Shown here: piece by piece, positions 13,043 to 47,597 of the stretch
Layout: the number at the start of each line of letters is the position of its first letter
Position numbering within the stretch: the first letter of the stretch is position 1
NCBI RefSeq assembly: GCF_002865645.1
Contig: NW_020194685.1
Span: 3,063,363 to 3,127,362, forward strand
From: Hyaloscypha bicolor E
Lineage: Eukaryota > Ascomycota > Leotiomycetes > Helotiales > Hyaloscyphaceae
Direction of reading: 5' to 3'
DNA: 64,000 nucleotides
Position numbers and translations under genes: made by a program
Notes under the pieces: model-generated
The model's input: the letters and a program-made list of their open reading frames with translations, nothing else
The model's database searches: none
Told to the model about the DNA's origin: nothing

Positions 13043-16000
13043 TCAAGTAGAAATTCCGCCCCCAGAAGCTCCCGTTGCTTGGCCACTTAAATTCAAAGCC
13101 GAAATCGACGCCGAGGAATCGTTTTCAGACTCGATGGCAGAATTCTTTAGTGGGGGGAGATTGACAGGCAAGGATGGTTGCCGTGTAATCGGAATGGCAT
13201 TGCCTGGTATGAGTCCTGAAGATGTATGGTCCGACGCCAGTAGCTTTGCTACCTGAGTATGACCTTTATCCAAAGCAAACATCCTTGGTGTCATCTTTCT
13301 CTTGTTGCTCGATAAAGGATCCGTGCCCCATCTCAGTAGCAGCCGGACAGTCTCCAATCTACCCTCCTCTGCAGCCCAAGACAATGCCGTCCGGCCAGCA
13401 TCATCTTTCCATTCGAGCATTTTGAGCGAGTTTTCTTTATTTTCTTCTTCAAGAAGTAGAAGATGTCTGAGAACAGTGGTCTGTCCTTTTTCCGCAGCAT
13501 GCGAGAATGGTGTCCTTCCGTTCCTATCTTTGTGCTTGTGATCAGCGCCATGATCTTTGAGTAAGCTTATGATGACGCAGTAGCCCTTTTTACATGCCCA
13601 TACGAGTGCAGTTTGATCTTGTCTATCTAGAGTGTCCACCTCGGCGAGACTGAGCTGCTCTAGTAGGTAATGAACCACGTCTTTGTGGCCAAATTCAGCA
13701 GCATAAGAAAGAGCCGTGCGACCATCTGTATCTCGATCATTTAGACTCAACTTGTATGAGTTCAGGAAAAGACGCAAAAGTGGCAGGTGGCCGTTTCTTG
13801 CTGCAATGATAACCATGGTAGCTCCGGTCTTGTCTTTGATCTTACAGGATGCGTTGGCTTCCAAAAGTCGTTGCACTGTGGCAAAATGGCCAGATATTAC
13901 CGCCAGAGAGAGTGCCGTTGCATAGTTTTTATCTCGGGTGTCAACGACTGTACCACCAGCACCGCTTTCTAAAAGCAATGCCACCACTTCATTCCAGCCT
14001 AGGTGCGCAGCAAACATAAGTGGTGTACGGCCTTCCCCCAAGGTAACAGAGTTGACATCTGCTCCTCGATTAATAAGCATCCGAACCATTTGGCACCGAA
14101 CGGCTTGAGATGAGGTTTTCAAATCCAAGAAAGTATCCGATTTCAAGACAGGGTGATCCTTTATCGAGTTGCCAGCGGCATAGGAAAGTGGTGTAGCATG
14201 ATCCACATCTTTACAGTCGAAGGTGTCGTCTGACCCAGAAGCCTCTAGCAGCTCGTTTAGAATCAATGGAGTAGAGTTCAAGGCCGCACTGTGAAACGCA
14301 GAGAATCCGGTCACCCAGGATCGGTATCGGAGATCCGCTTTAAGCTCAAGGAGTCGCCTGAGTTTAAACCGCTTTTCTGCTCCCGAACAAGCCAAAAGAT
14401 GAAGGGGCGTGATTCCTAAGAAATCAGCTTCATTGATAGACAAGTTCTCTTGGTGAAATTCCAAGACCATTTCAGTAATTGACGAGCGTTGATACTTGCT
14501 TGTTTCAGCCGAATCCCTATCATCTCCGCACATTAAAAACCAGGTACCAGATCTGTTGGCATCATTGCAGCATGTCAAATCGATTTTGGGGCTAAGCATC
14601 AGCTCTCGGACGGCTGCAGCGCTTCCTGAAATGGCGGCTTCCATCCAAGGTGTACGTTTCGAACGCCGACTTCTAGAGTTTGGATTCGCCTTCTTTTCCA
14701 GCAGTAATCTCACAATATTGCCCAGGTTCCTCTGGGCGGCAAGGGACAGAGCCGAGAACCCTTCGTTATCAGTTGCCTCGATATCAAGCTCTTTGGTTTC
14801 ACACAGGAGTTTTACTATTGGCAAACTCCCACAAGCTGATGCGAGCATCAAAAGATTTCGGTTGTGGGGTGGGAATGTTTGGGCGATGGAAGCGTGGGAG
14901 TCGAGCAGTAATTTAACAATTGCGGCGTCAGCCCCTTGCCCCATGATCGCGTGTGAAAGCGCGTTTTGACCCTTATTATCGCTGGCGTCAATGAATATCG
15001 AAAATGATTCGCATTCCCTAAGAAGGTACTTGGCAATATTCATATAACCGTCTCTGCATGCCAACATTAATGCCGAACGGCCTTGGTGATCTTTGTGATT
15101 GACTTCTACACCTGGTACCTCTCCAAGGAGCCTGACCAAGTACTCATCGCCGGTGATGACTGCTGATAGAAATATTGAGCTGCCATCGCCGCTTACAGCG
15201 TTTAGTTCAATATCCTGCTCTTCAAGCAGAAGCTTAACAATCTCTGCAAGCCTAAAATGAACGGCTAAATGCAATGGTGACATCATGTAGATTCGGTCGG
15301 CAGCATTGAGCCACTGCTCCCTTGAAGCAGCGTGATGTGATTGATCTGCTAATAAAAGCTTCACAATATGACAATGTTTAGACCAAGTAGCGTACCACAA
15401 AGAATTGGCTCCCTGGCAGTCTTTTGCGTATCGATTCAGGTTGGTCTTCAGTTCTGGTTTCGTCAAAAGTAGACGGACTGTTTCCTCGTCACCATTTCGC
15501 GATGCCCACAGCAAAGGCCCCATATCTCTATTCATATCTCTTTCGTTTACATTTTCTGGGCGCAGGAGTTGGCGGAGTATTTCACCGTTGCACGATTCAG
15601 CCGCGCGAGTCATGGGTGTCCATCCATGGCGGTCTTTTGACTTCAGCATGTTGTCATGATCCGGAAACCGCTGGAGAATAGTCCTGACTACTGCTGCATT
15701 TCCTCCCATAACGGCAGCAGTAAGAATGGACACTGTGCCAGGGTCTTCCGCAACAAGATCTTTATTCGGGATCGCTTTTTTCCGGGCGTAATCTAGTAGC
15801 ATAGTCGTAACCAGTTCGTGTCCACCAATGGCAGCAAGAATCAACGGCGTTTGGTGATCCAGATTTTTCCCTGTAAGGTAGTGCCCAGCATGCTCTAAAA
15901 TTTGGTTTAACACAAGGAAGTGACCCTGTCTAGCGGCGGCGTGTAGCAAAGAATTCCCACTTCTTGAAGAGCTTGCATTTGAATCAAAGCCCGAATTCAG

Positions 16001-19000
16001 CAAGAACTTCACAATCTCATAGTGTCCTGTTTGCACAGCTAAGTGTATCGGGATTTTGTCATCAATTGTCTTTGCTTGTAGAACAGTATAGTCATGCTTG
16101 ATGAGAATTTCAACAATATACCAGTGACCGAATTCGATAGCGATCAGCAGAGCTGTATAATTCGTAGCTGGCGTGGTAATATGGACATCAGCTCCCCGGC
16201 TAAGGAGAATATTGACAATCTCTTCATGGCCGTTCGTCGCAGCGAGTATCAAAGGTGTTTTGCCATCCGTTTTCTTGGGCGCGTTTGGATTATTTATCGC
16301 TGGGCTGTTATGGTCTAGCAAAAGCGTCATGATCTCGGTTCTGCCATTCTCAGCGGCTAGAGCAAGTAGTGGGTTCCCGCTGTTATCAAACATTTCCTCA
16401 TCCTCGATTTTCCCGCTTTGTATTAAAGCTGAGAAAACTTTGCTGTGTCCTTCAGTGACAGCCCAAGTAATTGGTGACCCCAGAGTTAGACCCTTGATCG
16501 TAGGATCCGCTCCATAACTTAGTAGCGCTTTGACCACAACCTCATGCTCAGAGGCTGCTGCCCACGAGAGAGGGGTCCGGTTATCAAAATCTCCAGAGTT
16601 GACATTTGCCACGAGACCATTTCGCCTCTTTGGGTCAAGTAGTTGTGTAACTACGTCGGAATGACCGTTTCCAGCAGCCCATGACAGTGGTGTGCGATAT
16701 GATCCATCCAGGGAGTCGACAATGATTTCAGGCATTTCTAGCAGTGACTTGAGGGCTTCTGTCATTCCATGACCAGCTACCCATGAGAGAAGATATCTGT
16801 CAGTCCCTCCTTTGCCTAGATCATAGGCCCCATGTTTGAGCAAAAGTAAAACGACGCTTTCGTGGCCTTTAGTAGCCGCGACCGAGAGCGGTGTCGCTCT
16901 ATTTGAATCCCTTTCATCGATATCTATTTTTTTACCGCCTGGTATAACACCATCCTCACCCAAGATGTACCTGATGGCTAATTCGTTGCCGCACTGGGCT
17001 GCCTGGTGAAGTGGTGTTGAACCATTCAACTGTTTGTGAGACACTCTAGCTCCAATCTGTATGAGGAATCTGACAGTCTCCGCGTGACTTTTTGAGTTTC
17101 CACAAGCAGCCAAGGACAGCGGTGTACATCCTTTCCGATCTTCTTTACGAAGAGTGGTCTTGTCCTGGTTCAAGAGAGCTTTGACAGCGGCTAGATGTCC
17201 GTTTTTGGCGGCGATATGGACCGGAAGCTGTCCGTTGTCATCCTCTAGAAATCCGAGTTTGTTCGTCTTGGATTTCTGTTATACTTGTGGCTTCTAGAAG
17301 GAATCCCATGATAGCCGCAATTCCCCCTCTTGCCGCGCGATGCAGAGGCGTTGAGCCTCTGTTGTCCTTTGAGCTCAAAGAAGCACCACCTTCTACTAAG
17401 GTGCGGACAAGGCTTTCATCGCCATCTATGATAGCCCGGTCCAAGTCTGTGATGCCAGAGTCGAGCTGTTTCGAGTCAAGAGAATGGAAGATTGCTCCAT
17501 GGCCTTTGTCGAAAGCTATTTTAGCAGCCGTTGACCAAGTCGAGTCAAGTATTTCGATATTTGCTCCATGATCAACGAGCAGCTCAACCATGGCCTGCAA
17601 TCCACTCTCGGCAGCAAGATGAAGCACCGTTCGGCCAGGTTTCTCGCCGTCCGTTCTGATATCAACGTTGGCACCTCTGCCTAACAATGCCAAGACAGCG
17701 GGTTCTTCATTTGCAATTACAGCTTTGTGTAGAGCTGCGAGTCCAGAATTATTCCGTAAAGTGGAATCTGCTCTAAATTCAAGTAGCACATCAATCGTCT
17801 TCGAACTTCCGGAATCAACCCTGTAGTGAAGAGCTGTATTGCCAGCGGTATCTTTTTGGTCAATCTCACCCTGTCGTTTTAGCGGCCCAATGTTTTCCAA
17901 GAGCTGTCTCAGTGCACGGGAATGCCCATTGTAGGCGCACATTTGCAAAGGCGTAGTAGTGCTCCCACTGGCGACGCGCGACGAAAACCTCCAGTAAGCG
18001 CAAGTCCAATTTCGATACCTCTGTGACGGTATCTTATACATCCCAAGAACTCTGTCAAAAAGCTCTTTGTCCATTAAATCCTCTGATTCTCGGACGTGAT
18101 GGGACCAATTAAGGCTCGCGTAACGAAGGAGAGGACGTTTGCTTAGTTGCAGGTCACCGTTTTCAGCCGCAGTTTGACTCAGAACTTCACCTAAACTATC
18201 AAGCCAGAGGTAGGATATGCATCCTTTCGCCAGCTCCAAGTGACACTCTGGTAGCTCCATAGCGTATTTTGACCTTGAAGATGGAAGAAGCAGATGTTTA
18301 CGGGCGGTATCGTGGAACAGGCGAACATGCGAAACTCCTTCTGTGTCTGTCACTGGTCGTAAAAATGAGCCATATACTCTTTGTTCGACATTACGGCCAA
18401 TATCATCCGCCTCTTTTTCTGCAAGAGATATTGTGTCTGGCTTGCTTTCCAGTGCCAACAACATGTTCAGTTCCGACACTGTAAAGCGGCCCTGGGCGGC
18501 AAGAACGAACTGGAGTAACTTTTTTGTTCTGGGCGGGAGTGAGTTGAAAAGAATTGCGTTAGGTGAATTATTGCTCATCGAAAGCTGAGACAACAATTTC
18601 TCATAGAGTCCTTCAAGGTCTGAAGGTATTGACTGGAGTACTAGGTCCCAAGTAGACCCGCTATACGGTTCTGGGTCATTCCTAATGGCCTGAAGAGTGA
18701 GTTGGGGCCAAATGAAAGTTCGATCGGCTCCCTTGCACAATAGAGCTTGCAACTTTTCAATGTCCTTCTTCTGTATCATGCTTTCTCCTGCCAGCATTTG
18801 CACTTCATTGCGAATGAAAGACCTGATATCATCCTCGATGGCTGGTTCATTTTCCAGAATTATTCTGCTCAAAAAGTGCGTTTCTTGTTCTGTGGAGGGC
18901 GGTAGTTCCCGCCAAATCTCGGGTCGACTTGTGAGAAGAATTCGAAAACACAAGTGACTATCTGTCAGGCGGTTCAATTTTGGAAGGATCGAAATAAGGC

Positions 19001-20879
19001 GTCTGAGCAGCTCGCCCCGCTTCAGAAGGTCGTTCAGTTCGTCTAATGCATCGATCACCCAGAATATCTGGCCAACTTTCAAGCCCTCGCAAATCTTGGT
19101 CCAGAAAGACCATAATGAATCCCATGAAATGGTCCCATTAGTCGCGTCCCAGTTTTCAATCGCGTAGTGGCACAACTCGAAATTATTCCCAGCCAATGCC
19201 TGGGAAACCATAGACCTCAGAAAATCGAATGGCGTTGATTTATCTCCCGTGAAAGAATATTTGCACACAATGGCATGGTCTTTGTTGAGAGTTTCAGCGA
19301 TGAAATTGGATAGGAAAGTTTTCCCAGACCCCGGGCTACCAGTTACCCATAACAGGCTTGCTCTTTGCGCAGTACCGTTCCACTCGATGTAATTTGGAGT
19401 TGAACAGATCCATTGGCACGTGCCTTTGGTGGGTTGTGTGAAATCGCTTGACGGGCCGTCGAAATCGAAGGCGTTCTTTCCTCGAAGGGTATCTAGTATA
19501 TCTCTCTGTTTTCTCTTCACTAAAATCAAAGTTGTTCAGCCCTAGATCAAATCTGCAGCACCATCTCGAAGATGTCTTACTTACTGTCTGCCAATGAGTC
19601 TTTTCTGATGAAATTCACCATATCCCGGATTGGTCGCCACACAGCACTAAACGCCTGGCTATTCTCATCAGAAAATCTACACATTGCCCTGTGATCTGCG
19701 TTTAGACCAATTTGTATCTCATTAGGCAAGCCTAACGTTGCAGTATCCTCGTCAACCACCTATAAAGCGTCAGAGATTTGCAGGTTGATCAAATAAGCGA
19801 CAAAGGAATACAAACACGAGACATGAGGCCGTCAGTCGTGTACATTTCGTAGAAACTCAAAATTCGGAGAATTTTAGCGCCACGCTCAACAAAGTCGGAG
19901 TTAATTTGCACCAAAGTCCTCGACTGTCTCTTAAGGTCGGCAAGCAGCTGTGTGCTCGATCCTACCCCTACCGTATTGAATAGTTCTTTTAGCATGGATG
20001 CCCACTTGGCCTTGTCTGATCCGCGATGTGGCGCGCCCATGAATATCAGACCCGCTGTACGGTCCAAAATATCCGAGTATACGATCCGTTTGTTGTGAGC
20101 CAAGATCAAAGCCTGAAAAGAATCAGATAAAATCGCATAACTCCGAGGTCTTTCTAGAGACATACCTTTTTGATGATTAAGCCTCCAAGACTGTGCCCCA
20201 AGAAAATGATAGGACGAGAGCGTTTCTAGACAGTGTCAGCTGGTATAACGCTTTAGTATAATTGATTTTACCTGTTCGGTATCCACGTGATTCTTGACCT
20301 CTTGAAGCAACTGGGCCGAAAAGTGTTCCAGCTCGTGTTCCCAGCCTGAACTGGCGATGATTGAGTTGTATCCAAAAGACAATACATGGATTCTGTCTAT
20401 TTTCTTTCCGAGGAAATCTCTAAGCCAGACCTTACCATCGGCCTCCCAGGTCTTTTCCCAATCACCTTGGAGGCCATGGACTGCAATGATGCTGAAGTAA
20501 ACGCGTCAGTCTGCGAGACACCTCAAACCAACGAAGATACGATAGAAACTCACTAAACCGTGTCAGGTTCATTTTTGTCTTCCGCTGGCCATTCCCAGAG
20601 GCCAGCCTTCTCACGCTGGCCCGTTGTGGCTAGTTGTGTCGTGATCGGAAATGTGGCAAGAGAAGTCTGATTCTAAGAATATGTGTGAGCACGATACAAT
20701 TCCCGGCTTCGTATTGGGTTGCGTACATTCGGTGTCGGCGAGACAGGCGGCGGAAATGACAGCCGTCGGGCGGATACCGGGGAGTTTCCGGTCCCCTCAC
20801 TTGATTTCCTGAAGAATCTCGTAATGCCCTGCCCTGAGCGTGGCCGCTGAGGGTTTGGGGAGCCGCTAGGTGAGCTCAT
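13043..20879 (-). CDS. NLR-like protein: serine hydrolase - NACHT - ankyrin repeats
   Basis: Eight exons on the minus strand: 20879-20727, 20672-20554, 20491-20272, 20225-20166, 20112-19816, 19759-19585, 19519-17285 and 17244-13043 (2486 aa, all phases consistent). Residues 1-90 are Ser/Pro-rich. Residues about 91-340 are a DUF676-like alpha/beta hydrolase: YIIAVHGLQGD, WLRDFL, nucleophile Ser176 in GHSLGG, then FMGAPHRGSDKAKW and the final LNADHRAMCRF. The NACHT ATPase follows, with Walker A GSPGSGKT (402-409) and Walker B FWVIDALDE (about 494-502). About 40 ankyrin repeats run from about 895 to 2420. The architecture is that of fungal STAND sensors: repeats sense, NACHT oligomerises, and the N-terminal domain acts, often in nonself recognition or cell death. 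That role is inferred. The last intron (17245-17284) is only 40 nt with a weak GTATAA donor. If it is not spliced, there is a frameshift and the gene is two pieces. Confidence 0.88.
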
Positions 20880-47157: not shown

Positions 47158-47372
47158 TTGTTAAATCCAATAATGATAATACCATTATAGTGTGTTCAAA
47201 TATTTGCAGTTATTGGGTCTTGAAATTTTGATGGGGTGCTCCCCGCTTTAAAGCTTGGAAAAGGGGAGAGGCTGACCAATCAGAGCTTGAGCACTTGGCG
47301 GAAAGGAGCTCCAAAGCTCAGACTAGTATGTAATAAAATAAGGAAAAATTGTGCTAATTATTCCAAGTCTTC

Positions 47373-47420
47373 GTAAGTTGCCAGGACGCATCTGCATTAA
47401 CGTTTACTAACAACTTCTAG
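47373..47420 (+). other. Spliceosomal-type intron 1 within the tRNA acceptor stem
   Basis: 48 nt: perfect donor GTAAGT, perfect branch site TACTAAC at 47405-47411, acceptor TTCTAG. It separates acceptor base 6 from base 7. Its removal makes the seven-base acceptor stem contiguous. Confidence 0.88.
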
Positions 47421-47452
47421 GTGGCTCAGTTGGTTAGAGCGTTGGTCTCATA

Positions 47453-47484
47453 CTCAGTATGATTAAGCTGATCACAGTTTGGCC
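47453..47484 (+). other. Canonical tRNA intron after position 37
   Basis: 32 nt immediately 3' of A37, the universal eukaryotic nuclear position. Bases GTATGA near its start can pair with the anticodon region, giving the usual anticodon-intron helix. Confidence 0.85.
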
Positions 47485-47493
47485 ATCCAAAGG

Positions 47494-47544
47494 GTATGCA
47501 TCACCAGTTCTTACCACAAAACAAACCACTAATCATCATTGCAG
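47494..47544 (+). other. Spliceosomal-type intron 2 within the tRNA variable loop
   Basis: 51 nt: donor GTATGC, branch-like CACTAATC around 47527-47534, acceptor TTGCAG. It falls between bases 46 and 47. Removal joins ATCCAAAGG to TCGAGAG. Confidence 0.85.
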
Positions 47545-47591
47545 TCGAGAGTTCGAGTCTCTCCGAGGACAGCATACCCCTAGGGAGTCTA

Positions 47592-47597
47592 TTTTTT
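47592..47597 (+). terminator. Pol III T-run terminator of the tRNA gene
   Basis: Six T residues begin 21 nt after the discriminator base, a normal RNA polymerase III termination signal. Confidence 0.75.

Follow-up and report, generated by a model that had tools for sequence, protein, structure and literature searches.

Nuclear tRNA genes are generally taken to have a single intron each, in most cases after base 37, which a dedicated endonuclease removes. The elongator tRNA-Met(CAT) gene at positions 47367-47571 of the window, the whole 64,000-nucleotide stretch of the Hyaloscypha bicolor E genome analysed here, is broken by three segments of 48, 32 and 51 nt and raises the question of what the additional segments are and how they would be removed. 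All its parts lie on the + strand. Exon 1 (47367-47372; tRNA nt 1-6, GTCTTC, whose partner is the 3' acceptor strand CGAGGAC) stops at a 48-nt intron of the spliceosomal type (47373-47420), which separates nt 6 from nt 7, opens with GTAAGT, holds the branch site TACTAAC (47405-47411) with the branch A at 47410, 10 nt before the 3' splice site, and closes with TAG. Exon 2 (47421-47452; 32 nt, tRNA nt 7-37) supplies the D arm and the anticodon CAT and is followed, directly after A37, by a canonical tRNA intron of 32 nt (47453-47484). Exon 3 (47485-47493; tRNA nt 38-46, ATCCAAAGG) leads into a second spliceosomal-type intron, which splits the variable loop between nt 46 and nt 47 and measures 51 nt (47494-47544; GTATGC...CTAAT...GCAG), with its CTAAT branch site at 47529-47533 and the branch A at 47532, 12 nt before the 3' splice site. 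Exon 4 (47545-47571; 27 nt, tRNA nt 47-73) contributes the T arm, the 3' acceptor strand and the discriminator A.

Removal of all three segments leaves a 74-mer that ARAGORN calls tRNA-Met(cat) with a complete cloverleaf and a score of 116.2; its acceptor, D and T stems have 7, 4 and 5 bp, respectively, and a single U.U mismatch lies in the anticodon stem. In the unspliced window, ARAGORN run without introns found 0 genes, comparison with Rfam at the gathering score gave 0 matches, and ARAGORN run with introns reported a Met gene with wrong boundaries (score 100.5). The sequence-only reading had placed the gene and its junctions exactly here, which direct reading of the sequence bore out base by base; it had further expected gene finders to miss the unspliced locus and the triple-spliced sequence to give a high-scoring Met-CAT with D, T and seven-pair acceptor stems, and the ARAGORN and Rfam results agree with it on each point. 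When both GT-AG segments only were taken out, the score was 112.2 but the call was Leu(aag) with a wrong 15-nt intron, because the 32-nt intron remained in; once this was also removed the call became Met(cat). The 32-nt intron contains a UAUG that could base-pair with the CAUA in the anticodon loop. The minimum-energy fold of the unmodified 74-mer differs from the cloverleaf, and in the fold of the partly spliced precursor a UCAUAC-GUAUGA pairing is made and the normal anticodon stem is absent.

The two extra segments had been taken for introns of the spliceosomal type, and this reading was supported: donor, branch site and acceptor are as in the pre-mRNA introns of the same fungus. Six of the latter (48-117 nt) were modelled in the window via homologous proteins, and they carry the same kind of signals in a less strict form, with GTAAG donors in 4/6 and weaker ones in 2/6, and with branch sites reading CTAAC or CTAAT in 3/6 and CTGAC in 2/6, none being found in the remaining one. 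Regarding protein-coding content, residues 1-480 of the tubulin cofactor D frame of the window share 88% identity with Hyaloscypha variabilis and 87% with Stipitochalara longipes, and the GH10 xylanase shares 84% with H. hepaticicola, which puts the genome close to Hyaloscypha within Helotiales. On the - strand, at 13043-19535, two adjacent open reading frames encode an NTPase domain of the NPHP3_N/NACHT type together with a very long series of ankyrin repeats, which looks like a fungal NOD-like receptor gene.

Signals this short could arise by chance. In 200,000 dinucleotide shuffles of the 48-nt intron all three signals were present in 13 (6.5e-5), and in as many shuffles of the 51-nt intron in 1 (5e-6). 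Strict consensus segments, defined by GTNNG[TCG], by CTAA[CT] with the branch A 10-13 nt from YAG and by a length of 44-62 nt, number six on both strands of the 64-kb window, and two of the six fall within the tRNA-Met locus.

The arrangement recurs in 12 further tRNA genes of the genome (82.04 Mb, 76 contigs); with the window gene, 13 modelled tRNA genes, for Met, Glu, Ala, Thr, Lys, Cys, His, Gln, two Ile and three Arg, carry 18 spliceosomal-type introns, none of them at 37/38. In hand numbering, and besides the two introns of the Met gene, position 6/7 is interrupted in Glu-CTC (L021), in Ile-AAT (L098) and in the second Ile-AAT gene (L101), which has another intron at 27/28. Position 7/8 is interrupted in Arg-TCT (L002), in Arg-TCG (L015; second intron at 10/11, with a 3-nt exon between) and in Gln-CTG (L031; second intron at 13/14, with a 6-nt exon between). 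The remaining introns lie at 8/9 in Lys-CTT (L102), 12/13 in His-GTG (L043), 24/25 and 71/72 in Arg-CCG (L055), 30/31 in Cys-GCA (L094), 51/52 in Ala-AGC (L023) and 53/54 in Thr-AGT (L007). A canonical intron at 37/38 is found as well in the Met, Ile (L098), Cys, His and Arg-CCG genes. The internal exons of 3 nt in Arg-TCG and 6 nt in Gln would be hard for the spliceosome to handle unless the introns leave sequentially.

These genes were obtained in several ways. In the genome search with the tRNA model RF00005, 63 of 3058 candidates were scored and at least 28 tRNA matches were obtained; further loci came from pattern searches and BLAST, and 19 tRNA genes were modelled by hand and program, 11 of the 28 RF00005 matches and 8 from the window and later searches. 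The other 17 RF00005 matches were excluded (14 repeat copies, L004 and L016, from a family in which no anticodon loop is readable, and the bacterial-looking L024), as were L103, L039, L108 and six additional members of that family. Six modelled genes have no spliceosomal-type intron: Ala-TGC (L001), Lys (L003), two Gly (L005, L006), Val (L008) and Phe (L017). Because the 19 are those genes that could be modelled and not a sample of the genome, 13/19 is no rate. The genome-wide tRNA model search listed 5/13 interrupted genes, three more match when searched singly, and the window gene was missed; the model treats the spliceosomal-type introns as inserts, or its match ends early. No tRNA was visible at 14 further B-box places that were inspected.

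Several tRNA-like sequences met in these searches are of a different make. Eight (L004, L016, L079, L082, L089, L095, L099 and L115) have a D arm and a T arm and no readable anticodon loop, in place of which stands a long hairpin that often starts with a GAAAC-like loop. The acceptor ends pair in most of them, and an AATAAG-like element lies upstream of some; the Rfam tRNA model recognises L004 and L016, and for L079, L095 and L099 no Rfam family was matched at E values up to 1. Another 14 tRNA-like copies (L009-L014, L018-L020, L022, L025-L028) lie inside a repeat, 12/14 within 12 kb of a contig end and the others at 20 and 38 kb, and by eye show many C-to-T type differences, as if affected by RIP. 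Two further tRNA-like genes, L039 and L108, combine D and T arms with an anticodon arm enlarged by long unexplained inserts.

The 18 introns form a uniform set. They are 48-56 nt long (mean 51.2), with 17 GT donors and one GC donor and with G at +5 in 18/18; the acceptors read CAG in ten, TAG in six, and AAG and GAG in one each, the AG in 18/18 having been a prerequisite of the modelling. A CTAA[CT] branch site is present in 16/18, with the branch A 10-13 nt from the 3' splice site; the exceptions are intron 2 of Arg-CCG, which has TTAAC, and intron 2 of Gln-CTG, in which no branch site is recognisable. Extended-consensus donors, a CTRAY-type branch site near the 3' end, AG acceptors and the likeness to the fungus's own pre-mRNA introns mark these introns as probable U2-type ones. 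T4 runs occurred in 1/16 introns against 2.6 expected (P 0.18, so that avoidance is not significant), and in 0/18 of the later set. Other kinds of mobile or self-splicing intron were considered and rejected. Group I and II introns have a conserved catalytic core and span hundreds of nucleotides; the segments here are just 48-56 nt, and no Rfam family is found in the window at the gathering score. Introner copies were rejected for the six of the 18 introns that were searched genome-wide, each of which matches itself alone.

Another possibility is that the tRNA endonuclease cuts the extra segments at bulge-helix-bulge (BHB) sites, as in archaea and red algae. Multi-intron tRNA genes with BHB motifs, interrupted outside 37/38, are indeed described for Cyanidioschyzon merolae and archaea (PMC9602550, PMC3978253), and several introns per tRNA gene are likewise given for C. 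merolae, where they lie in the D, anticodon and T arms, and for Thermoproteales (PMC9602550, PMC8450103). BHB introns, however, are defined by structure and not by a GT/branch/AG consensus, whereas the present ones have consensus donor, branch and acceptor signals. Over 16 introns, 0-3 of the 4 pairs of the BHB central helix could be formed (mean 1.56, approximately chance) in a test that is crude and also misses the three canonical introns to which it was applied. Cleavage at BHB sites would moreover leave the common donor, the CTAAY motif and the 10-13 nt spacing unexplained; this explanation is disfavoured, and we consider it very improbable.

Chance was further addressed by a decoy control, in which consensus segments were removed, in combinations of up to four, around 143 unique B-box-like anchors before ARAGORN was run, a hit being a splicing gain of at least 2 points or a tRNA seen solely after splicing. 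The loci had been chosen for tRNA likeness, and they were identical in the real and decoy runs. The real signals (141 candidate introns, 364 combinations) gave 11/143 positive anchors, 7 of the 11 only when spliced, versus 0/143 for decoys with reversed motifs (126 candidate introns, 307 combinations) and 0/143 for decoys with complemented motifs (151 candidate introns, 360 combinations). Two looser runs gave 10/86 real hits against one decoy hit and 13/127 against two, both of these latter decoy gains being below 2 points. The repeat copy L013, one of the 13 real-signal hits of the second looser run and likewise with a gain below 2 points (102.6 versus 100.8), was taken as spurious and is absent from the stricter 143-anchor run. 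The tRNA-Met gene of the window is among the 11 hits, though labelled Leu(aag) with the 32-nt intron left in. Gln and Lys are absent from the 11 automated hits, and their models were drawn by hand; ARAGORN scores them at 117.5 and 107.8, respectively, the anticodon of the Lys model being unclear because a canonical intron is present. Coding exons of 6, 3 and 2 nt are weak evidence taken alone, and would leave room for a chance resemblance or an assembly error, but the shuffles, the density of consensus segments in the window and the decoys rule out chance, and the 13 loci are spread over 12 contigs. We therefore give this explanation practically no weight.

Are the interrupted genes then the working ones? 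The sequence-only reading had proposed a count of other Met-CAT genes, and no uninterrupted elongator tRNA-Met gene was found in the genome by BLAST and pattern search. The spliced Met sequence matches by BLAST the window's own exons alone; of 54 pattern places, three hold its D-arm string GCTCAGTTGGTTAGAGC, namely this gene and the two Ile genes. Genome BLAST with spliced Ile, Gln, Cys, His and Arg-CCG gave 10 matches in all, at the interrupted loci only. When the first models of Glu, Ala, Thr, Arg-TCG and Arg-TCT were searched, a second locus was found for Glu alone, and it is itself interrupted. As very short exons would escape BLAST, these negatives apply to uninterrupted copies only. The second Glu-like locus (L103) shows no 5' exon, has 5 nt inserted in its D arm and carries a 51-nt segment (GTAAGG..CTAAT..TAG) within its T loop; it is perhaps a decaying gene. 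For the initiator tRNA-Met, genome BLAST with a Neurospora-like sequence did not find the gene, and BLAST with 11 fungal tRNAs gave no match at all; of 13 places with an anticodon-loop pattern, the one inspected, the only exact GGGCTCATAACCC (L140), is AT-rich DNA in which no tRNA lies. The initiator gene, too, may be broken into short exons.

The tRNA-Ile(AAT) genes L098 and L101, on different contigs, have identical 74-nt exons and differ in their introns: a 51-nt GTATGT..CTAAT..TAG segment at 27/28 of L101 is absent from L098, and a 10-nt canonical intron of L098 is absent from L101. Similarly, Lys-CTT L102 has the intron at 8/9 and Lys-CTT L003 is without one. Furthermore, the first Met intron and the 6/7 intron of L098 have near-alike 3' ends (CTAACAACTTC, then TAG or ATAG), which, together with the matching D-arm exons that follow, suggests shared descent or gene conversion. 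It could be argued that the loci are pseudogenes, dead tRNA genes with random insertions whose working copies lie elsewhere, as the genome does hold 14 tRNA-like repeat copies and a Glu-like locus that combines a D-arm insertion and a missing 5' exon with a GT-AG segment, and as its tRNA set was recovered in part only. Against this, the stems are still paired after splicing in the 13 modelled genes, uninterrupted Met, Ile, Gln, Cys, His and Arg-CCG genes were not found by BLAST, the two interrupted Ile genes are identical over all 74 exon bases, and splice signals at both ends are not expected of random insertions. Decay of this kind is thus a highly unlikely account of the set.

The flanks and interior of the genes bear on which polymerase makes the transcript. 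In the Met gene, TGGCTCAGTTGG at 47422-47433 and AGTTCGAGTCT at 47550-47560 (both on the + strand) are the A box and the B box, and each is contiguous. An AATAAG element at 47337-47342 (+ strand) lies 30 nt before nt 1, and a T6 run at 47592-47597 (+ strand), 20 nt past the discriminator, is a candidate Pol III terminator. AATAAG is found 22-49 nt upstream of nt 1 in 11/13 interrupted genes and also upstream of 4/6 modelled genes without such introns, with 14/19 in a recount over a list of 19 genes, against a background of 0.0144 per 38-nt window, and a run of at least five T lies 12-72 nt downstream in 13/13 interrupted genes. The AATAAG elements, the T runs and the A and B boxes argue for Pol III transcription. 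The idea that introns spare the internal promoter was rejected: by hand count, 5/18 interrupt the A or B box (nt 8-19 or 52-62), roughly as many as the length of the boxes would predict, and the promoter is thus not spared. These broken boxes would be easier to understand if Pol II made capped host RNAs from which the tRNAs were processed out after spliceosomal splicing, and recruitment of the spliceosome would be easier as well. However, the contiguous A and B boxes of the Met gene, the T runs close behind all 13 genes and the sharing of AATAAG with tRNA genes that have no such introns speak against a Pol II origin, which we regard as unlikely. Nor is the interruption a general habit of Pol III genes, at least of those tested. 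Judged by match extents, 16 genome matches of 5S rRNA run end to end without large inserts and four U6 matches are full-length within 105-112 bases; hence, of the Pol III genes tested, the invasion appears limited to those for tRNAs. Taken together, U2-type spliceosomal introns within Pol III tRNA genes are the best reading of these loci, and as judged from sequence a very probable one.

Both parts of this reading are already known separately, a spliceosomal intron in U6 and interrupted tRNA genes elsewhere. Rogers reportedly described in 1993 mRNA-type introns in fungal nuclear rDNA (cited in PMC11782384), whose transcript is made by Pol I; these are likewise mRNA-type introns in a fungal noncoding RNA gene, and no tRNA is involved. 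The canonical eukaryotic intron at 37/38 is present here as well, the 18 spliceosomal-type introns sitting elsewhere in the tRNA. The closest precedent is the U6 RNA of fission yeast, which has an mRNA-type intron and is thus, like the tRNAs here, a noncoding Pol III RNA with a spliceosomal intron (PMC10484740). There, U6 is a component of the spliceosome with the intron near its catalytic bases, whereas in H. bicolor many tRNAs are affected and the four U6 matches are uninterrupted. According to the tRNAscan-SE 2.0 paper, a eukaryotic tRNA gene has one intron at most (PMC8450103), and the words 'spliceosome' and 'spliceosomal' have 0 occurrences in the main text of a review of tRNA introns (PMC4090602). 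Spliceosomal-type tRNA introns would be a class for which tRNA gene finders make no provision. No report of spliceosomal introns in tRNA was retrieved from the open-licence literature, exact-phrase search included. Scans of viral and prokaryote contigs returned nothing, a result of no evidential value because fungal sequences would not be expected among them.

On this basis a route of maturation can be proposed for the tRNA-Met of the window. The A box, the B box and AATAAG would direct Pol III transcription up to the T run, and the spliceosome would then excise the 48-nt and 51-nt introns, by which the acceptor stem and the variable loop would be restored. RNase P, RNase Z and the tRNA splicing endonuclease require both of these elements. 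The 32-nt intron after A37 would subsequently be excised by endonuclease and ligase, a role that we assign to them because of where this intron lies and because it may pair with the anticodon. A point against this route is that Pol III transcripts lack the cap from which splicing usually profits. Since no uninterrupted elongator tRNA-Met was found, the supply of elongator methionine in this fungus would depend on the spliceosome. More broadly, it is probable, if somewhat less so than the nature of the introns themselves, that spliceosomal introns have invaded the nuclear tRNA set of a fungus at many positions between acceptor stem and T arm, in genes that have no uninterrupted copy, which would couple Pol III to the spliceosome and make translation dependent on spliceosome and endonuclease alike.

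If this is confirmed, tRNA maturation in this fungus would take two unrelated splicing machines, and the spliceosome would be able to handle short, structured and probably uncapped Pol III transcripts with coding exons down to 2-8 nt. Moreover, in genomes of this kind the tRNA gene counts obtained with standard finders would be incorrect. The identical tRNA-Ile paralogues that differ by one intron might provide a test bed for intron gain, and the system as a whole one for cap-free splicing and for links between splicing and translation.
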